Source of the DNA: a virus
DNA length: 64,000 bases
Strand: one strand, 5' to 3'
Virus record (IMG/VR): IMGVR_UViG_3300022744_000020
Coordinates: 206,384 to 270,383 of that record
Part shown: positions 1-59,804 of the stretch, in pieces
Numbering within the stretch: position 1 is the stretch's first letter
How the letters are laid out: every line of letters starts with the position of its first letter
Made by a program: the position numbers and the translations under genes
Notes under the pieces: model-generated
What the model saw: the letters and a program-made list of their open reading frames with translations, nothing else
Told to the model about the DNA's origin: nothing
Database searches by the model: none

Positions 1-1448
1 AACTTTACATCAAAGAATCGAACACCCGGACAACCACGTGCTTCAACATATCCTCCAGCAAACGTGAGGTTTCGAATGACCGTGTCTTTAGAAAGAGACT
101 GAAAGATAGCCAGCGCCATTGTTGCTCCGACATCCAAGGAGCGATCGAATGCGTAGCAAATAGTCGTCAGATCTTCAAGCGCTTTCACGTTTGGCAAATA
201 CTCAATCTGGAGTCTGGTACTTCCAGGGTTCTTACCGCAATTGAAAAGTCTCTTCAGTGAAACGTTCCCGTAGCAGCTCGACACGTACAAAAGCATTTGG
301 TCGTTGACACGGTTTGTGAAGACTACTCCGTCGATATCAACATCGCCAGTCGTGCCGACGATGTAGGCACACGTCAGCCCGACCTGCCAAAGCTTCAGAT
401 ACGTGAAAGCCACAGCACGAAGATAAATTCTCGAGGTAAAACAGACCCACTCGGCGTCCATCGTTCCGGCAGGCTCCAACCAGATACAACTCATTCGGTC
501 GCGATTTCGCTCCAGCGGATAGAGTCTCGGATTGGATTTTCCCTGGAGTTGAGTATTATCAATGGTCATTCTCATGGCTTTGGTATATTTTCCCCCGTTG
601 GTGATGATGCCAAAGTTCGTCACACCTCCGTTGTAGCTGACGGCAAATGAGCTCGGACCCATACTCGGCAGTGCCGACAAAGCATCGGCCACCGCCTGTG
701 GTGTCGTATTCCAAGCCAAAGCCGGAGTCGTTCCTAATGGTCCTGATTCATCTTCCAGAGAGATCGTGTAGGTTCCTCCGTTGATGATATTTTGGCCATT
801 GTAGATTAACCACTCGTACGTGTAATCAATCGGGAAGCGATTGGTGATGTAGATGTTGGGGATTCTAACTTTGCACCCGGTTGGAACCACGCAGCCGTTG
901 ATGCCATTTCCAGTGCTGAACACTCTGTCCGTGTGGTGCCAGAAGAAGAACTTCCCAGCCTCCCACGTACCCCCAACAAATCTATTTTTCTTTGTAGCGC
1001 CGTAGCAAATACCCGGACCGACATCGTCGTTGTATTTGGGATCGATCGGTGCAATACCCCAAGGCTTGTATTTTCCGCTACCTGGAGCCGTCTCCACCTC
1101 CACGTAAGTGATCTCCGGAATTACGCCTCCGAAGAGCTGCTTGAAATCCCAAGTCTTTTCGGTTCCGTCACCAATACCGATCTCCATCGGAGTTCCACGG
1201 ATGACCAATTTTCCTTGACCCGTGGCCTTGATGTGCTGACCCATGTCATCCAGCACAATCACGATTGGTGTCGTGGCGCTTTCATTTTTTATCAGAATGG
1301 TTCCTCGACTCACGCATTGAATCGATCCGGTATTCACCGTCGTACTCTGATCTATCGTGAGTACGGCGTTATTGATGATGTTGAATCCCTCGCCTTTGGC
1401 GTAGGTAACATCTTTCAAATTGGTGTTGGTTGCAACGACGATGGTCAT
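1..1448 (-). CDS. Virion/tail-fibre-like protein, 3' end outside window
   Basis: The minus-strand frame is open from an ATG at 1448-1446 to the window edge, so at least 482 codons are present and the C-terminus is missing. The start has an AAGAA element just upstream and lies 3 nt after the TAA of the upstream gene on the same strand (1452-2546), which implies one operon. The protein is rich in Gly, Thr, Asn and aromatic residues, with beta-strand-like alternation, and has no signal peptide or membrane segment. The N-terminal part reads like a beta-helical or appendage protein. I recognise no enzymatic motif. Fibre or baseplate function is inferred from composition and from the fibre-like neighbour. 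Confidence 0.75.
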   Translation of the reverse strand, partial: MTIVVATNTNLKDVTYAKGEGFNIINNAVLTIDQSTTVNTGSIQCVSRGTILIKNESATTPIVIVLDDMGQHIKATGQGKLVIRGTPMEIGIGDGTEKTWDFKQLFGGVIPEITYVEVETAPGSGKYKPWGIAPIDPKYNDDVGPGICYGATKKNRFVGGTWEAGKFFFWHHTDRVFSTGNGINGCVVPTGCKVRIPNIYITNRFPIDYTYEWLIYNGQNIINGGTYTISLEDESGPLGTTPALAWNTTPQAVADALSALPSMGPSSFAVSYNGGVTNFGIITNGGKYTKAMRMTIDNTQLQGKSNPRLYPLERNRDRMSCIWLEPAGTMDAEWVCFTSRIYLRAVAFTYLKLWQVGLTCAYIVGTTGDVDIDGVVFTNRVNDQMLLYVSSCYGNVSLKRLFNCGKNPGSTRLQIEYLPNVKALEDLTTICYAFDRSLDVGATMALAIFQSLSKDTVIRNLTFAGGYVEARGCPGVRFFDVK

Positions 1449-1451
1449 TTC

Positions 1452-3955: not shown

Positions 3956-4038
3956 GTCATTACTTAATTTTTTGGCCCTAACCAACCAGATTGGGAAAGA
4001 GGAATGTAAATCGAGACGCATTCCAGGTTTTTACAACC

Positions 4039-4105: not shown

Positions 4106-4420
4106 ATGGAAAAGAAAGAAATTACCTATTTGGTCTACGCCCAAATAGGTGGAGGTTGGTCGCGACAGCCGCGATACATCCCCACCTCCACACGAAGCGA
4201 TATGGTCGCTTCTTGGTGCCTGGTCTTTGGACCGGACACCGCCCGGTTGAATCCGGAGGGGGATGTAGAGGTGGAGACCAACAAGGTCTTCCAAGTTGCC
4301 GACTATGTCGGCTTGACCAATCTGCTCGGTGAAGCAGATTGGCACCCCAGGACCAAAGTAGGTCTGGGGAACTTCATCGAAAGCTTGATCAGCTTATCGG
4401 TGCGCGGCATCTCGCCATAA
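4106..4420 (+). CDS. Hypothetical protein, 104 aa
   Basis: Start ATG 4106 (MEKKEITYLVYAQ) follows the AAAGGGAA element of the shared leader. The protein is soluble, with alternating hydrophobic strands in the first 50 residues and an amphipathic C-terminal segment. It is the first gene of a unit continuing to 5698. No family recognised; an early host-takeover role is only inferred from the promoter class. Confidence 0.65.
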   Translation: MEKKEITYLVYAQIGGGWSRQPRYIPTSTRSDMVASWCLVFGPDTARLNPEGDVEVETNKVFQVADYVGLTNLLGEADWHPRTKVGLGNFIESLISLSVRGISP

Positions 4421-5742: not shown

Positions 5743-8511
5743 ATGTTTGAAATTTTGAGATCACTTGCTGGTATTCTCGATGTTCGAATCAACCGAAATG
5801 TCGTCACTGTCTCCGGAGTGAAGAAAGCCACAATCGAAGGCGGTATGAAGAAAGTGTTTGGCTCCGATAAGATCGCGGCCCACATTTTCAAAATCAAAAG
5901 CAACTCCTTCTCTTTTCAGGAGTGGTTCCTGCCAGATGTGGCTTTCGCTCTGCAGGAGATTGTCAACTCTCCCAAGTCTTACGCCGATCACAAAAGGACT
6001 TGTAAGCAAATTCTCAATCAGCTTTACGAGAAGACATGGCTCGGTCGGATCAATACTGAAGCACCAAAGCGGCTTGACCGCTCCAAGCTTCGAGACATGG
6101 TCTTCACCCCTTTGGATTTCCAGGAAGAGTTCTTCGACTATTTTGAGAAGAACGTCTACGCGTACAACCTGAAGGGTTTTCTTTTTGCTGGTGCGGCTGG
6201 TTCGGGCAAAGCCCAACCAGACTCGGCACTCGTGAAAATCCCCAACGGATGGAAACCCATAGGGGAGATCAGAACCGGAGATTTAGTGGTCACGCCCGAC
6301 GGAGCGCATGCTGTTGTTTCAGGTGTGTTTCCACAGGGAATGAAAAAAATCTACGAGATTTCCACGGTCGATGGTCGTCGCACTCAAGCGTGCCGTGAAC
6401 ACCTGTGGGAGATCATCATTCCGGATCAGTCGATTTTCCGTGAACCGAAGGTGGTTAACACTCAGGCAGTTCTATCGCTGATCAGTTCCGGGATTCCGGT
6501 CTTTATTCCCACCACCATTTGCTGCTCACCGACCGACATACCTCTCAGTGCAGATCCTGAGAAGTGCTCCCCAAGGGAGTTGATCGAAGCTTCATACGCC
6601 CAGAAAGAAGCCTTCTTTGTCGCTCAAGTGGGTCGAAAATATCGATACCTCAACAATTGGGCTCGAGTAACTGGCCAAGACCGAGAAGATTTCATCGCCC
6701 TCGTCAGGTCTTTTGGCGGGGTGATTGGACCAATCACGGAAGAAATGAGCCCGGACATTCTTCCGTACTACTTCGACTCTCTTGTTGAAATTGAGAACGT
6801 GCTTCTTGCCGAGGATCAATACGCTCGCTGCATCATGGTCGAAGATCCTCGTCATTTGTACGTGACCGATCAATACATCGCCACGCACAATACGTTTACC
6901 TCTTGCGCCCTGGCTCATTGCTCTGGATCCGACAAGATCATCGTTGTTTGCCCGAACAACGCTTTGGATCGGGTTTGGAAAGATTCGGCTCTGACGGTGT
7001 TCAAGCAACCACAATCGGTCTGGATTAGTGACGGGAAAACCCCCTTTACTGGTAAAGAAAGATTCCTGGTATGTCACTATGAATGGCTGAGTAAGCTTCG
7101 AGCCAATCTGGACAAGATTAGCTATCAGCGACTTACCGTCATTCTCGATGAATCGCACAACCTGAATGAGGCAGATAGCGGAAGAACCCAGAAATTCATT
7201 TCCCTGTGCGAGGAAGTGGACGCGGCTGAGGTCATCTGGCTTTCCGGCACTCCCATCAAAGCGCTTTCGACGGAAGCGATTCCCCTGATAAGATGTATCG
7301 ACCCCTTGTTCACCCCGGAGGTGGAAGACATTTTCAAGGCCATCTTCCGAGGAGAAAACAACAAAGCGATTTCGATTCTCAAAAATCGAATCGGTCTGGT
7401 GTCGTTCAAGGTCGCCAAAGATCGTCTGGGTCTGAAAGAGCCACTCTTCACCAATTACAAGGTTGCGTTCCCGGGCGCTGAAGAGTTTACCCTCACCAAG
7501 ATCCGGGAGAAGATGACGGCCTTCATCCAACAGCGAGATGTCTACTATAAGTCTCGAGAAAAGGCCGATCTGGCTTACTACCAGAAAATCTTGGATCAGC
7601 ACGCTGCAAAGCTGACGACTCGTGAAGAAAAGGCGGAATTCGATCAATACGTTCGCAACGCGAACATGATACGCAAAACCCAAGGCATGGGCTGTTCAGA
7701 CGAAATGAAGGCAGCCAACCTCTATGAGCTGCGCAACATCATGCCTGGACTTAGCGCCGAGGATCGCATCAAGTTCAAGGAATCGAAGACGATCTACAAG
7801 TACCTCACCCTGAAGATTCAAGGAGAATGCTTGGGTCAAATTGTTGGGCGTACCCGGATCGCTTGTCATGTTGAGTTGGCCAAACAGATCAAGTATGCTC
7901 CGATCCTTGAGTCGACTGAGAAGAAGACGGTTGTTTTCTCGTCATTCGTGGACGTGCTAAAAGCGGCTGAAGTGGAGCTGCAAGCTCAGCAGTATTCTCC
8001 AATGCTTGTTTACGGAGAAACCACCAGTAAACTGGCCCAGATAGTACAGCAGTTTGGAGAAGACGAATCAGTGAACCCGTTGGTGGCGACCTATGCTTCG
8101 TTGTCTACTGCGGTTCCTTTGATCATGGCCGACACCATGATTCTGATCGATGTGCCTTTCCGAGACTACATCCTTCAGCAAGCCGTGTCTCGAATCCATC
8201 GACTCGGACAGGTCAACGACACACACATCTTCACGATCGTGCTGGATACTGGCAACGAGCCGAACATCTCTACCCGAACGGTGGACATTCTGCGCTGGTC
8301 ACAACAGCAAATCGAATCTATCTTGGGCATCAAGTCTCCTTTTGAAATCAAGGACGGGGAAGAGATCGCACTCGAAGCCATGGAAAGTCTGGATGATATC
8401 GACCTGACGCAAGTGGTCGATCCGTTCTTTGCTGGACTCAAGCAGATGGATCAATTCATCGATCCGGACGTGGTTGAAGTCTCTGTTGAAAACACCTATC
8501 TCTCTTGGTAA
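5743..8511 (+). CDS. SF2 (SNF2-like) DNA helicase/ATPase precursor containing an intein
   Basis: The 922-residue precursor would give a 695-residue mature enzyme after removal of residues 157-383. The Walker A motif is split: AAGSGK (residues 151-156) before the intein and TFTSCAL after it, which rejoin as GSGKT. Further motifs are the DESH Walker B box in VILDESHNLNEA, the motif III-like WLSGTPIKA, and the C-terminal lobe with LPFR-type LIDVPFRDYILQQ followed by AVSRIHRLGQVNDTH, which matches the motif VI arginine region of SNF2-type ATPases. Such enzymes translocate on duplex DNA and act in replication, recombination or transcription remodelling. The ATG has a weak ribosome-binding site and follows a terminator directly, so a promoter is probably embedded there. 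Gene 8519 follows in the same unit. Confidence 0.9.
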   Translation: MFEILRSLAGILDVRINRNVVTVSGVKKATIEGGMKKVFGSDKIAAHIFKIKSNSFSFQEWFLPDVAFALQEIVNSPKSYADHKRTCKQILNQLYEKTWLGRINTEAPKRLDRSKLRDMVFTPLDFQEEFFDYFEKNVYAYNLKGFLFAGAAGSGKAQPDSALVKIPNGWKPIGEIRTGDLVVTPDGAHAVVSGVFPQGMKKIYEISTVDGRRTQACREHLWEIIIPDQSIFREPKVVNTQAVLSLISSGIPVFIPTTICCSPTDIPLSADPEKCSPRELIEASYAQKEAFFVAQVGRKYRYLNNWARVTGQDREDFIALVRSFGGVIGPITEEMSPDILPYYFDSLVEIENVLLAEDQYARCIMVEDPRHLYVTDQYIATHNTFTSCALAHCSGSDKIIVVCPNNALDRVWKDSALTVFKQPQSVWISDGKTPFTGKERFLVCHYEWLSKLRANLDKISYQRLTVILDESHNLNEADSGRTQKFISLCEEVDAAEVIWLSGTPIKALSTEAIPLIRCIDPLFTPEVEDIFKAIFRGENNKAISILKNRIGLVSFKVAKDRLGLKEPLFTNYKVAFPGAEEFTLTKIREKMTAFIQQRDVYYKSREKADLAYYQKILDQHAAKLTTREEKAEFDQYVRNANMIRKTQGMGCSDEMKAANLYELRNIMPGLSAEDRIKFKESKTIYKYLTLKIQGECLGQIVGRTRIACHVELAKQIKYAPILESTEKKTVVFSSFVDVLKAAEVELQAQQYSPMLVYGETTSKLAQIVQQFGEDESVNPLVATYASLSTAVPLIMADTMILIDVPFRDYILQQAVSRIHRLGQVNDTHIFTIVLDTGNEPNISTRTVDILRWSQQQIESILGIKSPFEIKDGEEIALEAMESLDDIDLTQVVDPFFAGLKQMDQFIDPDVVEVSVENTYLSW
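6211..6891 (+). other. Intein (227 aa) in the helicase P-loop
   Basis: The insertion runs from Ala157 (AQPDSALVKIPNGWKPIG) to a terminal His-Asn, followed by Thr as the +1 residue. Block A features are present (P-N-G-W, then GEIRTGDLVV). A block B-like ACREHLWEI contains the conserved His. Block F/G reads VEDPRHLYVTDQYIATHN. Removing it restores GSGKT. The N-terminal residue is Ala rather than Cys or Ser, as in a minority class of inteins that bypass the first acyl shift. At 227 residues it is too short for a full LAGLIDADG endonuclease; a degenerate linker lies at about residues 70-190 of the intein. Confidence 0.9.
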
Positions 8512-33423: not shown

Positions 33424-33480
33424 CATACATTCACTCCAGAGTCCAAAAGACTCTGGAGTGAATGTATGATGCTTTTTTTA
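33424..33480 (+). terminator. Intrinsic terminator after the tRNA-like element
   Basis: A 20-bp perfect stem (33424-33443 with 33449-33468) has a CAAAA loop and a T7 tail at 33473-33479. Confidence 0.93.
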
Positions 33481-33524: not shown

Positions 33525-33992
33525 ATGCCTGATAACCACACTCAGCTCTGGACCAGTATTCGCCCCGGTCAAAAATGGCATTTCACTTTGCTGGCGATCG
33601 TTCCGAACCATTGGCTATCGAAATCGGGCCCGAGCATAAAGGAGAGAATTCAGCAGAATCCAGAATGCCTGAAAGAGATCCAGCGATTCACTGAAGACGG
33701 AAAAACTCTCTTTCATGGCGGTACCATGTTTGAGCTTAAAGCCACACATGGAGTTCCGCTCGATTTTCTGTTGGATAAAATTGTCAACGAGTTTGGCTTT
33801 GCTGTCAGTTGGATCGATTTCATTGAACAGTCGCGCAAGAATGGGAGATGGGATTTCCAGACCATCAAAGAGATTGATTACGGCCTCAAGGACGCAATGA
33901 TCGATCGACAGTACGCCGAAGGAATTCTGATCCGATGTAAGATCTACATGACACAAGTCGCTCACCCGCTTTTGAAGGAACAAACCAAATGA
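33525..33992 (+). CDS. Hypothetical protein, 155 aa
   Basis: ATG 33525 follows TTGGAGAAAT. The protein is soluble, begins with a Trp-containing segment and continues alpha/beta. It overlaps the 33989 ATG by 4 nt (ATGA). The preceding interval has only TAAAATAGG as promoter candidate. No family recognised. Confidence 0.65.
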   Translation: MPDNHTQLWTSIRPGQKWHFTLLAIVPNHWLSKSGPSIKERIQQNPECLKEIQRFTEDGKTLFHGGTMFELKATHGVPLDFLLDKIVNEFGFAVSWIDFIEQSRKNGRWDFQTIKEIDYGLKDAMIDRQYAEGILIRCKIYMTQVAHPLLKEQTK

Positions 33993-34210
33993 AATACAAC
34001 CAACTCAACATTGGTCCAGCTTTTTACTATCCAGACGAATTGGAGCGGTTAGAGGTATCTGTGGAAGTATCCCAACCGAACAAGGGAAAAGTTTGGGTCA
34101 AGGCTCGCCCTTTAAGTTGTTCCAATAACGCTTCCTTCCTGCATCGCCTCAAGATGGCTTGGGAAGTTTTTCGTGGTAAATCCGACGTTCTTCGCTGGAG
34201 AGGTCAATGA
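33989..34210 (+). CDS. Hypothetical protein, 73 aa
   Basis: Coupled by ATGA to both neighbours (33525 and 34207). It is a small, basic protein, probably a beta-rich fold followed by a helix (SFLHRLKMAWEVFRGK). Nothing recognised. Confidence 0.6.
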   Translation: MKYNQLNIGPAFYYPDELERLEVSVEVSQPNKGKVWVKARPLSCSNNASFLHRLKMAWEVFRGKSDVLRWRGQ

Positions 34211-34761
34211 CTCAACCGATTCTTTTCGAGCAAATCCCTACGACTTCAATTAAGGACCTAATAAAGTTCTTTGATGAAAATGAACGGGAGTCTCTTAAGT
34301 CGATAAGTGCTTTTGATTTTGAATCCCAGTTACTTCAGATCTACTGCTTCAAACCTGATGATCCGGTTAATACCTATAGACTTTTCTTTGTTTTAGCTTA
34401 CTACCGCGAGTTTTGTGTGAATCCGGCAGAGTGCCGACCATTCGCAAAACTTCCGAACGGGGAAGTTTGTGAGATCGATGTCTCACTACTGGGGATAAGG
34501 ATTAGGCCAATCACCACCACCCTGAAGTACATGGTCGTGGATCGGGACCAACTTAACGTCCCGAGTAGGTATGGATTGCCCGCTATCGCCTTTGATGAAG
34601 TCGCCTGGTATCTCGGAAGTGGTCCTTTTGATGCAGAAGCAAACCCCACGATAGTTGAGCAGGTTCACACAGCTACAAAAGCTCGACTTCAAAAGTTCCC
34701 AGAAGAAGATTTCTTCGGTAAGGCACCTCACCCAAAAGTAAAGAATCGCAAAAAGTCCTGA
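34207..34761 (+). CDS. Hypothetical protein, 184 aa
   Basis: The start overlaps the previous stop by ATGA. The protein is soluble, alpha/beta, with a very basic C-terminal tail (KAPHPKVKNRKKS). It is the last gene of a tightly coupled triplet (33525-34761). No family recognised. Confidence 0.62.
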   Translation: MTQPILFEQIPTTSIKDLIKFFDENERESLKSISAFDFESQLLQIYCFKPDDPVNTYRLFFVLAYYREFCVNPAECRPFAKLPNGEVCEIDVSLLGIRIRPITTTLKYMVVDRDQLNVPSRYGLPAIAFDEVAWYLGSGPFDAEANPTIVEQVHTATKARLQKFPEEDFFGKAPHPKVKNRKKS

Positions 34762-34763
34762 GC

Positions 34764-34774
34764 ATATATTACCA
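34764..34774 (+). promoter_or_regulatory. Early-type box ATATATTACCA
   Basis: ATATATTACCA lies 56 nt upstream of ATG 34830 and contains the TATATTAC reported as the phiKZ early-promoter core. Short complementary arms (ACTAA/TTAGT) follow it. Confidence 0.55.
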
Positions 34775-34829
34775 AGGACTAAAGTAATCTTTGCTTAGTA
34801 ACGAAACCACAACGATTGGAAAATCGATA

Positions 34830-35291
34830 ATGTCCGATACTGAAAAGCTCGCACTCATTTCCCCGGCACCTTGGCCGTATTTCGGTCTCGTTGACGGTGT
34901 GACTAAATATCAAGAAGACCGAGAGCATAATCCGGAAGCCTTGCTCACAATGAAGATGAACGAGGAAACTCTTTCTGGTATGTTGGGCTATCTGCTCTCC
35001 GTCAAACAGTCTAATCGGGAACTCACGGCCCAGCGACAAGCGGTTGCCAACGAACTCGATTTCGCAAAAGGAGGGGATTTAACCCAACTAGCTTTAGCTG
35101 TTAGAAAACTAAACGGCGACCTCTTTGATAAGCACGGAGAATGGGCGCTCGAAAGAAGGCGAGCTGAAGAACTTCAAGGACAACTGAGTAAAGAGACTGC
35201 CAGAACTAAAGAGCTAGAAGAAAAATGTGCACGACTCGAGAAAATCAACGAGCGGCAACAAATCGCATTGCTTAATTTCTTAGGGGCTTAA
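34830..35291 (+). CDS. Hypothetical protein with C-terminal coiled coil, 153 aa
   Basis: ATG 34830 (MSDTEKLALISPAPW) is preferred to an earlier in-frame start that lies inside the leader. Residues 1-60 are globular. From about residue 85 a long charged helix (ERRRAEELQGQLSKETART) predicts a coiled coil. It resembles 9705 and 40201 in architecture: a small globular head plus a coiled tail. No family recognised. Confidence 0.65.
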   Translation: MSDTEKLALISPAPWPYFGLVDGVTKYQEDREHNPEALLTMKMNEETLSGMLGYLLSVKQSNRELTAQRQAVANELDFAKGGDLTQLALAVRKLNGDLFDKHGEWALERRRAEELQGQLSKETARTKELEEKCARLEKINERQQIALLNFLGA

Positions 35292-35338
35292 GACGACCTA
35301 AACCGTCCAGCTCAACAACCAACGTAGGAGTAACTCCC

Positions 35339-36052
35339 ATGGCATTAGATCTTCAAAATCCCGTCAGCGAAACCCAATTCATCGAGAGTCAGCAAGAAAA
35401 ATACGTCTTGGTCGACGAGGCGGCTCGCACTCAACTCAGCGAGACCATCAAGGCTATCGTCCTGCAAAATAGCAGCGAGTTCAACGCCGTTGTGGCGTGG
35501 TACTGCAAGTGCGTGGAGCAGTTCATGGGGCCGTTTGCCGAATGGCAAAAGCCAACAGTTCACGCCAGTGCCATTGCCTACGGAAACGAAAGCGATACCC
35601 ACTTTCGTTTCGACATCTACCTGGGTTGTCTTTGGAAGAACGTCCGTCAGTTCGAGAACAACCCTGCAGCAACACGCAATCCGATTGCTCCTTTTGGGCT
35701 GGATACGGATCGCAGTTTGCCCATTGTGGATGAGGTGACTCGTCAGTTACTCGCCGCTCTGGCTTCAGAGTTCCTCCTGGTACCGACTTCTCGTGCCAGG
35801 CTCGGTAAATTCGGCTCTTTCAGCGAAGGGTCTCCGGAATGCGTCTATAAGCCAAATGGAAACATGATGGTTGGATTTTCCGTGATCTACAGTGTCACCG
35901 ATTTGGTATGCGTCAATACCCGGATGCGCGGAATGGAAGGTAAGACTCCGTCGGCACTGTACGTGTTTTCTCGCATCTCCCCAAGGGTCATCGATGGGAC
36001 ACTCAAGCTGGCAGTGCAGCGAGTGATGAATATCGACGGCTCGATGATCTGA
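35339..36052 (+). CDS. Hypothetical protein, 237 aa
   Basis: ATG 35339 has a TAGGAG site. The protein is soluble and alpha/beta with scattered Cys, including CKCVEQFM. It has no signal or membrane segment and no motif that I recognise. It is followed by five small genes in the same direction. Confidence 0.62.
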   Translation: MALDLQNPVSETQFIESQQEKYVLVDEAARTQLSETIKAIVLQNSSEFNAVVAWYCKCVEQFMGPFAEWQKPTVHASAIAYGNESDTHFRFDIYLGCLWKNVRQFENNPAATRNPIAPFGLDTDRSLPIVDEVTRQLLAALASEFLLVPTSRARLGKFGSFSEGSPECVYKPNGNMMVGFSVIYSVTDLVCVNTRMRGMEGKTPSALYVFSRISPRVIDGTLKLAVQRVMNIDGSMI

Positions 36053-36073
36053 ATCAGGTCAAAAGGAAAAGAA

Positions 36074-36661
36074 ATGGCAATCGACACCATTCCGGAGATG
36101 AAGGACCAATCTCTCGACGTGACAATCGAGGCGAATCGGTTTGCGCGGTACATGGTCTATCTCCAGGACTTATTTGCTTCTCCAAAGGCAGGTAATAAAG
36201 AGCCCGCTGAAGTTACGGTTGTGCTCAATGAAGATCGACCCCGCTACCTGGTAAAGTTTTACTGTCGGTATGCCATATCGAGCTACTTCGGTCTGGATTA
36301 CACAGAGTTCATCGATCGCATCCTGAAGAAGAGAACCTACGTCGAGGCAATGGTGATTCCGGCAGGAGTTACGTCGCGCTGGACGCATTGCGCGGAGATC
36401 ATCGTCGGGATACCCTGTAAGGAATATTACCGTGGCTATTTGACCGGGGTTCTTTTCGGGGAGGACAACCCTCTGGCATTCGTTACCGACGAATTCGAAA
36501 TCAAGAATTATTTCTGGCGATATACTCGGGAAACTTTACTGGAGTGGTCGCTTGAAAACGACCAGAAGTCAAGAGGAGTTCAAGAACAATACCAGCTACA
36601 GTGTGCTTTGGATAATAAATTCCGAGCATTTAAAGATCAACTGATTTCCATCGCCAACTGA
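36074..36661 (+). CDS. Hypothetical protein, 195 aa
   Basis: ATG 36074 follows AAAAGGAAAAG. It is a soluble alpha/beta protein with aromatic-rich segments. The opening RYMVYLQDLFASP resembles EFFIYLQQVLAPS in 37149, and both are about 200 residues with a helical C-terminus, so they may be distant paralogs. Function unknown. Confidence 0.6.
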   Translation: MAIDTIPEMKDQSLDVTIEANRFARYMVYLQDLFASPKAGNKEPAEVTVVLNEDRPRYLVKFYCRYAISSYFGLDYTEFIDRILKKRTYVEAMVIPAGVTSRWTHCAEIIVGIPCKEYYRGYLTGVLFGEDNPLAFVTDEFEIKNYFWRYTRETLLEWSLENDQKSRGVQEQYQLQCALDNKFRAFKDQLISIAN

Positions 36662-36668
36662 GAACACC

Positions 36669-36878
36669 ATGGCCAAACTGAGTAAAGAAGCAAAAGAAGC
36701 GTTTCTGGAAGAACTGAACCAACTGACCCGCAAACACGGAATTCACATCTGGGGTTGCGGCTGCTGTGGCGGGCCGGCACTGGTAGGTCTGACCGAAAAG
36801 GAAACCAGCCCCGACCACCGGTATCGTTTTGATGACGCTGAAGAAAGCGACGGACATATCGAGTGGGCGGACAAATGA
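36669..36878 (+). CDS. Small Cys-rich protein, 69 aa
   Basis: ATG 36669 lies 7 nt after the previous stop. A central WGCGCCGG carries three cysteines in a tight turn, which could be a metal site or redox-active. The rest is charged. It is coupled by overlap to 36875. No family recognised. Confidence 0.58.
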   Translation: MAKLSKEAKEAFLEELNQLTRKHGIHIWGCGCCGGPALVGLTEKETSPDHRYRFDDAEESDGHIEWADK

Positions 36879-37156
36879 GTCAGGAGCCTGAAAACCAATT
36901 CAGGCTCTCATTTCACTACTTTGGGGTCAAGCTAGTTTTCACGATAGTTAGATCCCTTACTGGTGAGGTGAGCTGCACTATACGTGCTACTTACAGTGGA
37001 GTAAAAGAGCCTGAAGAGTTCGGGCTCAAATTTACCGATAAAGCGCAAAAAGCAGCGCGTGAAAACTGGCCGCTTTACTTGGAGAAGGCAAAGGCCAATG
37101 AGCTAACCTTCTTCTCCTCTCTTTTCGAAAACTCTCAAGAGGTGACACATGGCTGA
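36875..37156 (+). CDS. Hypothetical protein, 93 aa
   Basis: ATG 36875 overlaps the previous stop (ATGA) and is preferred to a GTG at 36863. The protein is predicted to be beta-rich in its first 50 residues (KLVFTIVRSLTGEVSCTI) and helical at the end. Its 3' end overlaps 37149 by 8 nt. Unknown function. Confidence 0.58.
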   Translation: MSQEPENQFRLSFHYFGVKLVFTIVRSLTGEVSCTIRATYSGVKEPEEFGLKFTDKAQKAARENWPLYLEKAKANELTFFSSLFENSQEVTHG

Positions 37157-37760
37157 TGCTGAAAACAACCAAGAATCAAGCGATCACCCCGCTACGCAAA
37201 CCGGACAATTGGGGGAGTTCTTTATCTACCTCCAACAAGTTCTTGCTCCATCGACTTACCCGGTGATTTTCAGATCTGAGGAAATAGAGGCTGAGCCGGA
37301 ACATACTCAACTCATCTTTACCACGGACTTTCCAGCAAAGTTCGAGGATGTGAGCGAGGACTGGAATTACAACGCAGTTATTCAAAAAATCCTAGGCCGA
37401 AATGCCACCCACCAAAACATCCGGCATGCGCACTATTTCGCCCGAGATTATCCAACTCGGATTTTCTACTGGTGGACCTACGAACGAGAACTCAATATCC
37501 TGGCTCCGAAGATCGTACTCCGGGAACAAACACTCGCCTCTACCCTGTTCCCGGAAATGGAAAATGATGAGCGTGCAAACATCAATCAGGGATACCGAAA
37601 GCAAGTGTTCTTGAAAGCAATCTATTCGATTGCTCAAGCAGTGCGAGAAGAACAGCAAGCGAAAATTTCGGATCTGATTCAAGAACTCTCCGAGCGCCAA
37701 AAGACCAGTCGTGCTTTAGATAAGGATCTGGTGCGTTGGTCAAAAATGGTTGCGATCTAA
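37149..37760 (+). CDS. Hypothetical protein, 203 aa
   Basis: ATG 37149 overlaps the previous gene by 8 nt. An acidic N-terminus (ADAENNQESSDH) precedes an alpha/beta core, then a long helical C-terminus (REEQQAKISDLIQELSERQK). It may be a distant relative of 36074. No family recognised. Confidence 0.6.
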   Translation: MADAENNQESSDHPATQTGQLGEFFIYLQQVLAPSTYPVIFRSEEIEAEPEHTQLIFTTDFPAKFEDVSEDWNYNAVIQKILGRNATHQNIRHAHYFARDYPTRIFYWWTYERELNILAPKIVLREQTLASTLFPEMENDERANINQGYRKQVFLKAIYSIAQAVREEQQAKISDLIQELSERQKTSRALDKDLVRWSKMVAI

Positions 37761-37793
37761 ATCCCTTCATTCCAAAATAGAAAGGCCAGCATC

Positions 37794-38036
37794 GTGGGAA
37801 TTGACCATTTTATCCTTTGCAGTAAATGCCAAGAATCGGCACCAACCGTAGGGACTTCAGCGGGATGCTCTGAGCCTCGTTGGATGCCTGACTCTTTGGA
37901 GGTGCTACCCGCGTTCATAATGGCTCATCTTGGCCATCCGATTGAGTTGGTTCATGAATCTGATCCGCGCGCTTACCTGTTTGAGCAATGGGATGATGAA
38001 ACCTTTGAAGCGATGAAAAATAAAATCCGCCCCTAA
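37794..38036 (+). CDS. Hypothetical protein, 80 aa
   Basis: It begins with GTG 37794 after an AAAGGCC site. CSKCQES and a later Cys could form a metal site. The product is otherwise acidic and aromatic. No family recognised; the short size lowers confidence. Confidence 0.5.
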   Translation: MGIDHFILCSKCQESAPTVGTSAGCSEPRWMPDSLEVLPAFIMAHLGHPIELVHESDPRAYLFEQWDDETFEAMKNKIRP

Positions 38037-38054
38037 ATTACCAGCGACAACGAC

Positions 38055-38480
38055 ATGAAAACACTTGCCACTCCGCTCCCCCTAGATCCTTTCCTGGCTC
38101 AACATGCTTGGTTCCAATCCGTCCAAAGCAAGAAACACTATTTGTTCTGGTGGTGTCCTGCCAACGAATGCTGGTCTTCTGGTCCCGATCTTCCGGCTGC
38201 GAGCGAGATCGGAGATTTCAGCTTTTTCTCCTGCTGTCCCAATCCGGGGTATCTTCCCGCCAAAGACACCCTCGTGATCGAGTACCTGCAATCCATTCGA
38301 TCGATAGTGCCTCCGACTGAACTCCGATATGCACATCGTGCCGAACTCATCAAACTCTTTCGATCTAAACTTGGATTTAGCTTGAGGCAAGCCAAGGATG
38401 AAAGCGAAGCGATCCTGGACCGGCTCTGGATGAGCGATTCGGACACTTACGCCGGTGCCCTACTGAACGCCGTTGGTTAA
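38055..38480 (+). CDS. Hypothetical protein with L7/L12-like C-terminal segment, 141 aa
   Basis: ATG 38055 (MKTLATPLPLDPFLAQ). Residues 1-85 are Cys- and Trp-rich (FWWCPANECW, FFSCCPNPGY). The C-terminal stretch LIKLFRSKLGFSLRQAKDE recalls the ribosomal protein L7/L12 C-terminal domain, where a V-I-K-x-V-R helix is followed by G-L-x-L-x-E-A-K. In L7/L12 this surface recruits translation GTPases. If real, the phage protein could mimic it; the match is by eye and short. Confidence 0.55.
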   Translation: MKTLATPLPLDPFLAQHAWFQSVQSKKHYLFWWCPANECWSSGPDLPAASEIGDFSFFSCCPNPGYLPAKDTLVIEYLQSIRSIVPPTELRYAHRAELIKLFRSKLGFSLRQAKDESEAILDRLWMSDSDTYAGALLNAVG

Positions 38481-38505
38481 ATCACTCACTCCGCAAGGAA
38501 ATTCA

Positions 38506-39555
38506 ATGACTACACGCACTAATTCTGGAATCGTTACCTTTGGTTGGAACGGCAGCATTCACGACCAATATTTCACCTCGAACCCTATGGAGCTTTTGGA
38601 ACCAGGGCAATACGAATTCATGCAAGACAGTGGCATGTTGTCGGCAATTGAGTCTCGTACTCAGCCGGTTGAGTTGTCTCTCTGGGCTATTGAAAGTTCC
38701 AATCACTGTCTTCGTCACGGCTTTGATACGCTGAATATTTCAATGTACGCTGCTCCAAAAAAGGCCCTACAGACCAACAAGTTCTTGCTTTCGGAAATTG
38801 TCATCGACCCAAAAACAGACAAGGCTCGGTTCAGTCATCAAAAATTAGAACTAAAGAAGCCCCTCTACGTTTGGTTGGAGCCTAAAGACGGTTGGAAACT
38901 TCGCGATGGTCGGGCAACTCATCCAAATGCGGAGCGTATTGGAAAGACATCTTCAATCAGTATCAACCTGCAACGCATGAGCGTGACTGAGGTCGGGGAC
39001 GCCCTTCCCAATTATTCGCTGCCAGAAGCGATGAAGGCGGTGCAGTCTAATTCAAAAGAACATTGGTTTAAATTCATTGCTGGAAATTATGAAGGAAAAC
39101 CCCCACGACCCACTGATTCATTGTTGGAAGCCTTGATGGTGCAGGCCGCAACTATGGAAGGAATTCACGATAAAGAATACCTCAAGCTTTGTACAGCGCT
39201 GAGTGAAACCCATTCTGGTCTTAATTGGCCTCAAGAAGTTCTGACCAAGGCTTTTGAGGCGATGGCTGGGGATCGTTCACTCAATACCGCGGCTGAAAAT
39301 CTGCACTATGAAGGATTGTTTGGTCGCGCCCTGATTCTGTCCGGTGCCGCTCGGGCCACCTTGTTGGCTTTGCATCGTGTCGGACCTCTGAGAGATGGCG
39401 ACGTCCCGAGTAAAGCCGGCAGGGACGAGTTATTGGCGATCGGATTGATCGAAAAGATCATCGTTCGTGGAGAGGACGGGTATCAAGCCTGCAATTATCG
39501 AGGTCGCGATGTGATGAAAGCACTGAACGTTCTTTATCCGGATAAAAAATTATAG
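38506..39555 (+). CDS. Hypothetical protein with C-terminal winged-helix-like domain, 349 aa
   Basis: ATG 38506 (MTTRTNSGIVTFGWNG) has AAGGAAA upstream and replaces an earlier start inside the preceding gene. The N-terminal 150 residues are beta-rich. The last 80 residues (ARATLLALHRVGPL, then LLAIGLIEKI, then VMKALNVLYPD) parallel the end of the 1112-residue protein (ARCVLRTLKEVGAT, then IALKMLKVLFPNE). The stop codon lies inside the first hairpin of the large candidate RNA, so transcription probably continues into it. Confidence 0.65.
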   Translation: MTTRTNSGIVTFGWNGSIHDQYFTSNPMELLEPGQYEFMQDSGMLSAIESRTQPVELSLWAIESSNHCLRHGFDTLNISMYAAPKKALQTNKFLLSEIVIDPKTDKARFSHQKLELKKPLYVWLEPKDGWKLRDGRATHPNAERIGKTSSISINLQRMSVTEVGDALPNYSLPEAMKAVQSNSKEHWFKFIAGNYEGKPPRPTDSLLEALMVQAATMEGIHDKEYLKLCTALSETHSGLNWPQEVLTKAFEAMAGDRSLNTAAENLHYEGLFGRALILSGAARATLLALHRVGPLRDGDVPSKAGRDELLAIGLIEKIIVRGEDGYQACNYRGRDVMKALNVLYPDKKL

Positions 39556-40137
39556 GAAGATCCCTATAATCTGCGAAAGCAGAAATGCCATTTGAGATAG
39601 GGTTGGGACTGGTAACGGGGCCCAATGACTTCAACCTTAACGGGTTGCGCTCCAGTGGAGCAGCGAAGTCGCAGATGCTGTCTCTGGAAGACCGGGAACC
39701 TGAAAAGTAATCCCGCGTCGGCATCACTGTGCCTATGGGTGTAGTCAGTGATGTTTATAAACGAACCATCCGTGACAACTCAGACTTGTCACGGAGTTCA
39801 AGGTAGGGAGGGAAATCGAAATTAACTCCCCTAGAAGTCCTTGGTCATGCCCACCACTCGGAAAGCCCCCTTCCGCTGGGAATGTTTCGACGAAATTCCA
39901 GACTCTGAGGGGTTTGGATGGATGAAAATCCACTCGTGACTTTAAGCCGGGCCTCAGCCCAAAACCTGCCCGTGTAGCCGGGCATAGGCAAGGGTATGCC
40001 GAAGTTAAAATCGGAAGTCGCACCACAGATCTTCCACCCAAAAGAAACGAATCTTCGCCTGCTACCTTGCGTGGAAGACCAGTCTCTCTGCCCCACCCTC
40101 ATGCTCAAAAGGCGTGAGGGTGGGGCAGTTCTTTTTT
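39556..40137 (+). ncRNA. Candidate large ornate structured RNA, about 580 nt
   Basis: This stretch has no plausible gene and is packed with consistent helices. They include TCTGC-GAAA-GCAGA (39570-39583); a three-way junction closed by GACTTC/GAAGTC (39627-39670) holding AACC/GGTT and GCTCC/GGAGC; a second junction closed by GATGC/GCATC (39674-39725) holding GTCT/AGAC and CGGGA/TCCCG; CATCACTG/CAGTGATG; CCGTGACA/TGTCACGG (39770-39794); CGGAA/TTCCG; GGAA-x2-TTTC/GAAA-TTCC; TGCCCG/CGGGCA; TCTTCCAC/GTGGAAGA (40030-40078). It ends in a perfect terminator. Length and phage setting recall the GOLLD and ROOL classes; I cannot assign it. RNase P, tmRNA and group I intron signatures were not found. 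Confidence 0.72.
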
Positions 40138-40138
40138 G
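40087..40138 (+). terminator. Intrinsic terminator of the large RNA
   Basis: CTGCCCCACCCTCA and TGAGGGTGGGGCAG form a 14-bp stem, then TTCTTTTTT. The RNA candidate would end here. Confidence 0.92.
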
Positions 40139-40160
40139 GTTATTCTAAAGATTAATAGAC

Positions 40161-40172
40161 ACATATCATCAA
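40161..40172 (+). promoter_or_regulatory. Early-type box ACATATCATCAA
   Basis: It lies 29 nt upstream of ATG 40201 and directly after the RNA terminator, so a new unit starts here. Confidence 0.5.
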
Positions 40173-40200
40173 GGTGTAACCACCGCCAACGAAAGCAGAT

Positions 40201-40581
40201 ATGTCGCAACAAAAGACCCATGCCGAAATCCTGCAAGCCCAGTGCTTGAGCCTTGGTGAGCTTTACCAGGCTGCCAAAGCCACTCTGGACGAAAACACCA
40301 GACTGACAGCCACTTTGGCTTCCTGTACTCGTGAGCGAGATGAAGCTCGGAAGAAGCTTGCCGAACTGCAAACAGCCGGGACAACCGAAGGTGATCAGAT
40401 CACTTTGTCGAAAGAAACTTTCCAGAAGCTGATCGATCTCGGGGAAAGATTTCTCGATAGGGATTTTGATGCGTTCACTGACCGGTCGGTGTTCCGAGGC
40501 ACTTCGGAAGAATACCATCAGAAATACAACCCTCAGGAGTATGAGTTGATCCAAGCTCTTCAGAAACGCATGTACGAATAA
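40201..40581 (+). CDS. Hypothetical coiled-coil protein, 126 aa
   Basis: ATG 40201 (MSQQKTHAEILQAQ). Residues 1-62 form a charged helix with heptads (TRERDEARKKLAELQ) likely to dimerise, followed by a short globular part. It is the first gene of a long plus unit that includes DHFR. No family recognised. Confidence 0.62.
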   Translation: MSQQKTHAEILQAQCLSLGELYQAAKATLDENTRLTATLASCTRERDEARKKLAELQTAGTTEGDQITLSKETFQKLIDLGERFLDRDFDAFTDRSVFRGTSEEYHQKYNPQEYELIQALQKRMYE

Positions 40582-46171: not shown

Positions 46172-47239
46172 ATGAGCATTCTCAGCGATCGACAAATTCG
46201 ACATCTGGCTGAAAACCACGGCATGATCGAACCGTTCGAACCCGGTCAGATCCGACACGCAGCCGATGGAAAAAGGCTGATCAGTTACGGAACCTCCAGC
46301 TATGGCTACGATGTTCGAGTGGCCAACGAATTCAAGGTCTTCACCAACGTCCACTCGACTGTGGTGGATCCCAAGAATTTCGATGAGAAGTGTTTTGTGG
46401 ATATGGTCGGCGATGTCTGTATCATTCCACCGAACAGCTTTGCTCTGGCGCGAACGGTGGAAAAGTTCAAGATCCCCAGAGACGTGCTGACCATCTGTCT
46501 TGGTAAGAGCACGTATGCCAGGTGCTTCACCGGAGACACGAAGGTTTTGTGTGCCGACAACGTCGGCAGAACCTTCCTCGAGCTGGTAGATGCGTGGAAG
46601 AGCGGCGTCACTTACCCGATCTATTGCATGAACGAAACCGGGGAAATCGTGGTGTCCTACTACGAGAACCCACGGCTCGTTGGGCGGGAGAAGGTGGTCG
46701 AGGTCTTCACGAACATCGGGCTTCAGACCGACACTCATCGGTCGTCGTTCAGAAGCACGCCGGATCACGAGCATTTCGTCTCGGTGTCGAAAACTGTTCG
46801 ATCCGACCAGCTTAAGCCGGGCGACTCGCTCATGATCCCCTGGGTCTATGAAAAGCGTGCCTCCATCGGGGCCGAATCCGCGTCCAGAGAGTTTCGAGCA
46901 GAATCGATCGAAATGGTCGAATCCGTCGTCGAATGCGAGGGTCTTCACGACGTCTTCTGTCTCACGTCTCCCGTGCACGGCAACTTCATCTTGGCTGATT
47001 CCGGTGTGATCACCAAGAACTGCGGCATCATTGTCAACGTCACCCCCTTCGAGCCGGAGTGGGAGGGTTACGTTACGCTGGAGTTCTCGAACACCACCCC
47101 GCTTCCGGCGAAGATCTACGCGGGGGAGGGATGCGCTCAAGTGCTTTTCCTTCAAGGCTCCGAGCCGTGCGAAACCTCCTACCGCGACCGCGGTGGGAAA
47201 TACCAGGGTCAGACAGGTGTGGTCATCCCGCGACTGTAA
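46172..47239 (+). CDS. dcd: dCTP deaminase precursor containing an intein
   Basis: ATG 46172 has a GAAGGAA site. The extein reads as Dcd: [13 protein letters not shown] (residues 39-51), GKSTYAR before the intein and [16 protein letters not shown] after it, then [19 protein letters not shown]. Without the 166-residue intein the enzyme is 189 residues, the usual size. Bacterial-type Dcd converts dCTP to dUTP, feeding dTMP synthesis, and is trimeric. Host nucleotide-depletion defence systems use related enzymes, but here the metabolic context (DHFR, ligase) suggests pool supply. Confidence 0.95.
46523..47020 (+). other. Mini-intein (166 aa) in dCTP deaminase
   Basis: It starts at Cys118 ([18 protein letters not shown]) and ends ...GVITKN before Cys+1. 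Block A is CFTGDTKVL. Block B is STPDHEHF, with the TxxH motif. SGVITKN is block F/G. The penultimate residue is Lys, where nearly all inteins have His; this His normally assists asparagine cyclisation. No homing-endonuclease domain fits in 166 residues. The site is in a conserved Dcd active-site segment. Confidence 0.9.
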
Positions 47240-57581: not shown

Positions 57582-59804
57582 ATGATCAAGTTTTCCAACC
57601 GTGACACGCTCGGCATCCGTCCGCAGCAGGCTCAGACGCCGACCGAAGCCCTGATGGGCGCCGTGTCGAACCTGAAGGAACAGAACTCTGGCCATCACGT
57701 GGACGCGGGCACGACCAAGGGCATCCTGGGCATCGAGTCGATGTCGGTGGAAGTCGCTGGCCGTGCGGACGAGTCGGCTGGTCGAATTCAAGAGAATCTG
57801 ACCAAGGCCATCGCCGCCACCAATCTGCAGCTCAAGAATGAGGGCCGCGGCACGATGGAGTTCGGCGCTGCTTCCCTGGAAGCCGCCACCTACGCCATGA
57901 TGGCCGCTTCGAACCCGCGCGCGCTGGCTGCTCGCGGCAACTTCGATCCGACCGGCGTTCGCTCGGCTGCCGAGCAAGAAAAGGCGACCTACGTCGCCAT
58001 GAACTCGACCGGCGTGCGCGGCAAGCGTCCCGTGGTCGGCGCCGAAGCCTTCGACAACCGTGTGAACAACACCATCATCGAACGCGCTGTCACGTACAAC
58101 CTGAAGGGTCCGCGTCAGAACGAATTCGCCGCCACGTTCTTCCCGCCGGTGGCAATCGCTCCGGGTCAAGCCGCCTGGTCGACGTCGATCCAAGTCCAGT
58201 ATGTCTTCGAGCCGGTCAAGCATGCCGTCAACGGCGCCGTCGCTGACTTCCATCGCGTCTCGCTGCTGAAGGCCCTGCGCAAGTCCGACATCCTGCGCAG
58301 CGAAGTCACGAAGGTCATCCCGGTCCTGCGCACCGGTGGTGGCGAATCGGACACCACGCACCTGTTCTCGTCCAAGGTCGCGCCGGTCAACGTGATGTAC
58401 GAAAACCATCCCGTCCCGACCGCACCGCTGGCCTTCGGCGTCGGCGAGTTCAACCTGCTGGGCCTGAGCCAGAACGACGCGCTGATCCAGCAAGGCGTGT
58501 TCACGCACAGTGACTCGCTGGACTCGGCCGCCTACTTCGAAGAAATCTTCATCGAACTGGGCGCCAACGCCGGCGGCAAGGTTCTGCGCTTCCCGGTGAA
58601 GGACCTGCGTGGCACGCACTTCACCTACAGCCTGCAAGGCAACACCCGCACGCTGTCCATCCAAAGCAAGATCTACGATCTGTGGCTGAAGAAGGACATG
58701 CTGGATCACCTGGGCGCCGCCATCCCTGGCCTGAATGGTCTGGGCACGAACCAAGTGCGCGTCAGCATGAGCGTGTACGGCACGATCCTGCAGGACAAGG
58801 GCACCACGGACATCAACGCCGGCAAGCTGGTCGTCGAAGAAATCCGTACGGCCGATGGCGAGAAGCTGGACCTGAAGTCCTCGCAAGGCGCCACGATCGT
58901 GACGCTGCTGGAAGGCACCAAGGGCGACAGCTACCGTGTGAACATCCGTCGCACGAACTCGAACCTGCGTGAAAACGGTCAGCGTATCGACACGCAGACC
59001 GAAGTGAACGTGTACTACGTTCCGACGCTGGCTCCGATCACGGCTCAACGCCCGGTGCTGCAAGACGGCTCGGACGACGGTGCCCTGATGGACACGCTGT
59101 GCCAGACGACCTACGTCAACGCCTCGAACCACGCGGTCGACCGCCTGTTCGAAATCGCCGACACGCTGAAGACCTACACCGCCAATCGCGGCGTGGAATC
59201 GCAAGCGCAGATGCTGGGCGTGGTCAGCTACCTGATCGAGCCGACGTATCTGGAAGACGAATGGAAGATCGACGAGATGGTCGACTCCCTGAACTCTTCG
59301 GATCGTGCGAACAACACGATGGACGCGTTCCTGAACGGCGTGCGTGACTTCGCCTACCGCATGTGGACGGAGTCGGGTCTGCAACTGGCCCTGGAAGCCG
59401 CCTACGGCACCTGCCCGAAGCCCGTGGTCATCATCGGCTGCGACCCGCTGTACAAGCGCTGGCTGACCGAGTTCGGTGACAACCGCATGATGGGCGAGTT
59501 CTTCGGCCACCGCGTGGTCGATTCCTGGAACGAAAAGATGAGCGGTCACCTGTTCATCACCTTCGGTCTGGAAGAAGCGTTCTCGTCCGGCGTGCAGTGC
59601 CCGTGGCACTTCGGCAACTTCGTCTGGCGCGCGGAAGTGCCGGTCGCGATGCCGATCACCCGTGGCAACGCCACCACGCACGAACTGATGGTCACGCCGT
59701 CGTACCTGCACGTGCCGAACCTGCCGGTTCTGGCCAAGATCAAGGTCTCCGGCATCGAGAAGATCATCGCTGCCAAGAACCCGGTCTGGACGAAGGCTGT
59801 GTAA
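57582..59804 (+). CDS. Putative major capsid protein, 740 aa
   Basis: ATG 57582 (MIKFSNRDTLGIRPQQ) follows ACGGAGTC. The codon bias is extreme, nearly all G/C-ending, as for the 48390 gene, which indicates the most highly translated class. The first 100-150 residues are helical and polar, consistent with a delta or prodomain removed by a maturation protease in many large phages. The rest is alpha/beta without enzyme motifs. The length is near the 747 residues reported for the phiKZ capsid protein. The long ORF on the opposite strand is a shadow of this codon bias. Identity rests on size, bias and position. Confidence 0.7.
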   Translation: MIKFSNRDTLGIRPQQAQTPTEALMGAVSNLKEQNSGHHVDAGTTKGILGIESMSVEVAGRADESAGRIQENLTKAIAATNLQLKNEGRGTMEFGAASLEAATYAMMAASNPRALAARGNFDPTGVRSAAEQEKATYVAMNSTGVRGKRPVVGAEAFDNRVNNTIIERAVTYNLKGPRQNEFAATFFPPVAIAPGQAAWSTSIQVQYVFEPVKHAVNGAVADFHRVSLLKALRKSDILRSEVTKVIPVLRTGGGESDTTHLFSSKVAPVNVMYENHPVPTAPLAFGVGEFNLLGLSQNDALIQQGVFTHSDSLDSAAYFEEIFIELGANAGGKVLRFPVKDLRGTHFTYSLQGNTRTLSIQSKIYDLWLKKDMLDHLGAAIPGLNGLGTNQVRVSMSVYGTILQDKGTTDINAGKLVVEEIRTADGEKLDLKSSQGATIVTLLEGTKGDSYRVNIRRTNSNLRENGQRIDTQTEVNVYYVPTLAPITAQRPVLQDGSDDGALMDTLCQTTYVNASNHAVDRLFEIADTLKTYTANRGVESQAQMLGVVSYLIEPTYLEDEWKIDEMVDSLNSSDRANNTMDAFLNGVRDFAYRMWTESGLQLALEAAYGTCPKPVVIIGCDPLYKRWLTEFGDNRMMGEFFGHRVVDSWNEKMSGHLFITFGLEEAFSSGVQCPWHFGNFVWRAEVPVAMPITRGNATTHELMVTPSYLHVPNLPVLAKIKVSGIEKIIAAKNPVWTKAV

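Follow-up and report, generated by a model that had tools for sequence, protein, structure and literature searches.

ROOL, GOLLD and OLE are large noncoding RNAs in which extensive structure runs through the full length of the molecule, and tRNA genes are frequent, though not obligatory, in their vicinity. Phage phiKZ provides a reported noncoding RNA, PHIKZ298, which derives from a 3' untranslated region (3' UTR), is without a transcription start site of its own and carries a probable terminator at its end (PMC8545117). Early promoters of the phiKZ-like phages OBP, N1M2, 201phi2-1 and EL have been described, with the consensus sequences given in Table 2 of PMC7058600.

The stretch considered here was initially described, in a reading of the sequence only, as a large ornate RNA resembling GOLLD and ROOL and possibly representing a new class. 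It is most likely of an ordinary kind, a phage 3' UTR or intergenic RNA, of which it would be a new instance, and a gene-poor folded stretch of such length is uncommon in a phage. The reading that we prefer, and to which we give roughly even chances, is that the stretch forms the long 3' UTR, folded in part, of the transcription unit to which the gene at 38506 belongs.

The DNA analysed as a whole, hereafter the window, comprises 64,000 nucleotides, from position 206384 to position 270383 of a virus record of 270,383 bases. A match of its capsid gene (57582-59804) to the phiKZ major capsid family (E 9e-154) identifies the phage as a phiKZ-like jumbo phage of ~270 kb. Among named phages, Burkholderia phage FLC9 is the closest at the protein level, with only 33% identity in the capsid and 41% in a DnaB-like helicase. 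The lineage is isolated among the collections searched, from which near-identical records were perhaps left out. The window also encodes a dCTP deaminase (46172-47239) and a SNF2-like helicase (5743-8511), each with an insert that resembles an intein. That of the deaminase matches Pfam Intein_splicing at E 2.4e-5, short of the curated cut-off, and that of the helicase was seen by eye in the Walker A motif.

Borders of the stretch and its transcription unit

The stretch lies between two genes on the + strand and ends at a terminator that is closely followed by a promoter-type site:

38506-39555, + strand: upstream gene for a predicted protein of 349 aa (coding score 33), whose stop codon borders the stretch
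40088-40137, + strand: intrinsic terminator, recognised from fold and sequence, with an 18-bp stem at 40088-40128 and then TTCTTTTTT
40152-40179, + strand: early-promoter-type site, where the following transcription unit would start (20.1 bits, with this site excluded from the matrix)
40201-40581, + strand: downstream gene, 126 aa, function unknown (coding score 13.3)

The 645 bases between the stop codon of the upstream gene (39555) and the ATG at 40201 are without a gene-like open reading frame (ORF). The initial description of the region as gene-free was borne out, the longest + strand ORF in 39556-40200 being only 50 aa, and the terminator that it had called perfect is indeed strong, with 18 pairs at 40088-40128 and then TTCTTTTTTG. 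Several PHROGs of unknown function weakly match the C-terminal part of the 38506-39555 protein (E 2e-7 to 1.5e-3), and this part appears to be a domain common to jumbo-phage proteins of unknown role. A 54-aa similarity to the same part, at 44%, occurs in FLC9 (200674-200832). The genes flanking the stretch show no synteny in FLC9 or in a second phage genome, G008.

A motif search of the genome pieces, covering 527,406 positions, recovered an early-promoter-type motif, TTTA.ag.CATAtATtAtC...TGAat, at 32 sites of at least 15 bits. The strong sites in the window (40152, 43271, 48985, 63358, 30456, 29617, 32036, 18376, 13879 and 4030) are all on the + strand, and the map that they form is useful for annotation of the phage. 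The motif resembles that of OBP, TTTYARRYAKATATTATYWWADTG, the phiKZ consensus being TATATTAC (PMC7058600); this likeness served here only for placing the borders of transcription units. The site at 40152 begins 24 nt past the terminator stem, while the 5' border of the stretch lacks the motif, with a best score of -12.6 in 39000-39600. Because an early-type promoter directly follows the terminator and none is found at the 5' edge, the stretch appears to form the 3' end of the operon before it.

A mechanism can be proposed on this basis. Transcription would continue past the stop codon of the 38506 gene for ~530 nt that hold no recognisable gene and would end at the 18-bp terminator, and the next unit would begin at the early-type promoter beyond it. 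With the first 260 nt folded into hairpins and the terminator capping the 3' end, the simplest role for such a tail would be to protect the upstream mRNA from degradation by 3' exonucleases and to insulate the unit that follows. The tail might also be processed into a stable RNA that accumulates, as reported for PHIKZ298 (PMC8545117).

Two observations count against the 3'-UTR reading. At 645 nt, the stretch is long for a phage 3' UTR. Moreover, no early promoter of known type was found that would drive 33525-39555, the nearest early site upstream (32036) being followed by a strong terminator at 33473. The stretch RNA could therefore have a promoter of its own, for which a TATAAT at 39565 and a bipartite element at 39542 are candidates.

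Folding of the stretch against shuffled and genomic controls

The sequence-only reading held the stretch to be folded, and as a whole it is more stable than its dinucleotide shuffles (z -6.2, with 0 of 100 shuffles as good). After removal of the terminator the z-scores were -4.0 (+ strand) and -3.0 (- strand), and 529-nt windows across the 64 kb had a mean z of -1.65 (sd 1.66). Much of the signal is supplied by the terminator and by a hairpin-prone genome. The strand asymmetry at 39556 (-6.0 plus, -4.1 minus) resembles that of a group I intron in the same genome (-5.7 plus, -4.1 minus); this asymmetry, the over-stable 5' half on the + strand and the poor coding scores are counted in favour of the 3'-UTR reading. 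The domains and helices predicted by folding, all on the + strand, are as follows:

39571-39830, + strand: 5' structured domain, the sole over-stable part (z -4.57, 0 of 200 shuffles as good)
39831-40085, + strand: 3' part, fold indistinguishable from shuffled sequence (z -0.85, 38 of 200 shuffles as good)
39550-39570, + strand: 7-bp hairpin TTATAGG/CCTATAA across the stop codon
39571-39574/39579-39582, + strand: helix of the GAAA loop, high probability in the full-length fold
39605-39613/40078-40086, + strand: predicted long-range closing helix of 9 bp (p 0.94)
39618-39632/39834-39852, + strand: long-range helix, high probability in the full-length fold
39690-39697/39711-39719, + strand: hairpin helix, high probability in the full-length fold
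39720-39729/39746-39755, + strand: hairpin helix, high probability in the full-length fold
39763-39778/39786-39799, + strand: hairpin helix, high probability in the full-length fold

The 5' domain ranks 9th among 456 terminator-free windows of 260 nt, and some of the windows ranked above it fall in genes, notably at 4107-4420 (z -7.68). The segment 39800-39940 has a z-score of +0.4.

Several individual elements of the initial description are present as claimed, including the hairpin CTGC-GAAA-GCAG capped by GAAA and both elements of the pairing TGCCCG/CGGGCA. A three-way junction closed by GACTTC/GAAGTC (39627-39632/39665-39670) had a mixed outcome: this helix closes the junction when 39626-39671 is folded alone, and the compact junction (39627-39670) also forms when 39571-39830 is folded alone, but it is lost in the full-length fold, which prefers a long-range pairing of GACTTC to 39834-39839 (p 0.95). 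The remark that nearly every segment has a nearby complement does not mark the stretch as unusual, given that its helix and junction counts and its entropy are at the level of shuffled sequence or ordinary phage DNA. Shuffles matched or exceeded it in 37% of cases for helices of at least 6 bp, 50% for confident helices, 96% for multiloops and 27% for positional entropy, and a long-range closing helix of at least 8 bp was present in 11% of shuffles and 17% of ordinary windows. The ornate look is at chance level, and the description as folded holds for the 5' half. Visual counting of stems combined with a single z-score overstates RNA structure.

These results bear on the proposal that the stretch is a free-standing, structured noncoding RNA of ~560 nt. 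It would span 39575-40137, be confined to this phage lineage, be transcribed from a promoter of its own at the bipartite element and function as RNA, possibly with partners or as a multimer. The over-stable 5' domain, the strong terminator, the lack of a gene and the predicted 9-bp closure that would join the two ends all speak for such an RNA; the chance-level helix and junction counts and the 3' half that is not over-stable speak against it. We regard it as unlikely, while recognising that a true large RNA would be a rare addition to the few giant phage RNAs that are known.

Further stretches of the phage without a well-scoring ORF occur at L129:17164-18725, window 1-1451, L133:17759-19727 and L138:18898-20000, where only isolated windows are over-stable (down to z -4.6). 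Some of these ORF-poor stretches may hold small genes missed by the simple model.

Coding potential, relatives and the 5' element

The coding model was trained on the phage itself and is imperfect, since some real small genes there score low too. By this model, ORFs in 39556-40200 score at or below background with one weak exception:

39585-39710, + strand: possible small ORF of 41 aa with a weak coding score and CGAAAGCAGA ahead of its ATG

This ORF has the best score in the stretch (1.5 to 2.0, about the 97th percentile of small ORFs), and the 10-mer CGAAAGCAGA has one other copy in the genome pieces examined, before the ATG of the 40201 gene. Both features would suit a reading in which the stretch consists of decayed or very small genes, either the remnant of lost early genes or the ORFs 39585-39710 and 39847-39939 (30 aa), so that the hairpins would belong to sequence that codes, or once coded, for protein. 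Genuine genes of this phage can be rich in hairpins, as at 4107-4420. The other ORFs of the stretch have negative coding scores, however, and no protein relatives were found for any reading frame: the ORFs of 39556-40200 are without a Pfam or PHROGs match, fragments translated in all six frames are without relatives in Pfam, PHROGs or the fetched jumbo-phage DNA, and the 41-aa ORF has none in the phage collection either. No protein-coding pattern was found in the stretch, nor was there an Rfam match to it, so two of the three outcomes that would have counted as refuting the initial description did not arise. We consider this reading possible though doubtful. As a separate observation, the 104-aa gene at 4106-4420, behind the early promoter at 4030, has consecutive hairpins packing its coding sequence (z -7.7), a signal that exceeds that of the stretch studied here.

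The search for related RNAs was equally negative. Rfam detected no family in the window at the gathering cut-off, and permissive filters up to E 10 gave chance matches only in the stretch. As a positive control, this library detects a genuine group I intron at another locus of the phage (RF00028, E 9e-12; L131:18798-19128, G000 58798-59128, + strand), located in a gene-free stretch of ~700 nt. A group I intron at the locus itself was rejected, there being no RF00028 match in the stretch, which lies after a stop codon. The possibility that the stretch belongs, as a divergent member, to a known family of large RNAs (GOLLD, ROOL, OLE, group I/II intron, RNase P or omega RNA) draws on a length similar to that of ROOL and on the presence of an intron of such a family in this phage; against it, the chance matches to E 10 include none of these families. 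A tRNA search that covered the window and ten 20-kb pieces of the phage, L129-L138, was negative; G000 200001-206383 was covered by the searches of the whole record. No nuclease or reverse transcriptase was recognised beside the stretch. At the sensitivity that Rfam 15 affords, membership in a known family is largely refuted, and it is highly improbable.

BLASTn of the stretch against phages, plasmids and its own genome returned the stretch itself, the palindrome of its terminator and a chance match of 17 bases, and nothing more. Jumbo-phage relatives were gathered with aligned DnaB-like helicase sequences; scans with one protein at a time (upstream gene product, capsid protein or ligase) gave no hits, and the capsid sequences were too diverged for an alignment to serve as a search query. 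BLASTn in 70 entries (~66 distinct records, some only pattern matches) yielded only chance hits, and four exact-pattern scans of IMG/VR gave either nothing or chance matches in ORFs. A single-sequence covariance model of 39626-39800, run on 50 records, recovered only itself at E <0.2, and nhmmer found no match in 1.67 Mb of the fetched relatives' DNA. A pile-up of weak hits at query positions 119-149 was considered as a conserved motif and rejected, the inspected hits lying in ORFs with the exception of a 19-base match at a contig end. Among the collections searched, the stretch is therefore an orphan sequence, and this lack of any relative weighs further against a free-standing RNA.

The 5' edge carries the bipartite element named above as a possible promoter:

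39542-39574, + strand: bipartite element ATAAAAAATTAT-N10-CTATAATCTG, with a second copy at G000:101418-101451

In the genome pieces searched, the pattern ATAAAAAATTAT-N10/11-CTATARTCTG occurs in two copies, the other being L134:1418-1451, and both lie at gene-free stretches. Both copies score 22 of 22, as compared with 18 for the next-best site and 17 for a reversed-genome null. The element is possibly a second promoter class, a lead suggested by sequence. Recurrence of a TATAAT-type 5'-edge element and an AT-rich upstream half at another gene-free place favours a free-standing RNA, but the element exists in two copies only and a whole-region alignment of the two regions is not above shuffles. 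A more specific form of that proposal, a lineage-specific RNA of ~560 nt belonging to phiKZ-like jumbo phages, outside the described families, with its own promoter of a so far undescribed class (ATAAAAAATTAT-N10-CTATARTCTG) and acting as RNA in the course of infection, is quite unlikely. The idea that the element marks a decayed group I intron arose because the true intron also has TATARTCTG ahead of a hairpin with a GAAA loop; it was dropped, with no Rfam trace in the stretch or at the second site (L134 1150-1720).

Comparison with described phage RNAs

The analogy with GOLLD and ROOL is essentially one of length. The stretch is similar in length to ROOL, and ROOL and GOLLD are likewise phage-encoded, folded and situated in a gene-free locus (PMC12286853). 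The covariance models of ROOL, GOLLD and OLE in Rfam find no match in the stretch, however, and the analogy is further weakened by the absence of tRNAs in the parts searched and of relatives in the collections searched. The full-length structure typical of these RNAs is likewise lacking, with a z-score of -4.6 for the 5' half and -0.85 for a 3' half that is not over-stable.

PHIKZ298 offers a parallel to the preferred reading of the stretch as a 3' untranslated end. Like PHIKZ298, the stretch belongs to a phiKZ-like phage, directly follows a stop codon, contains stem-loops and ends at a Rho-independent terminator (PMC8545117). It is also without a promoter of known type of its own, as PHIKZ298 is without a mapped start site of its own. 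The two differ in size, PHIKZ298 being ~100 nt and the stretch ~560 nt, and in the evidence behind them, since expression of PHIKZ298 was demonstrated by Northern blot (PMC8545117), whereas the stretch described here is known from its sequence.
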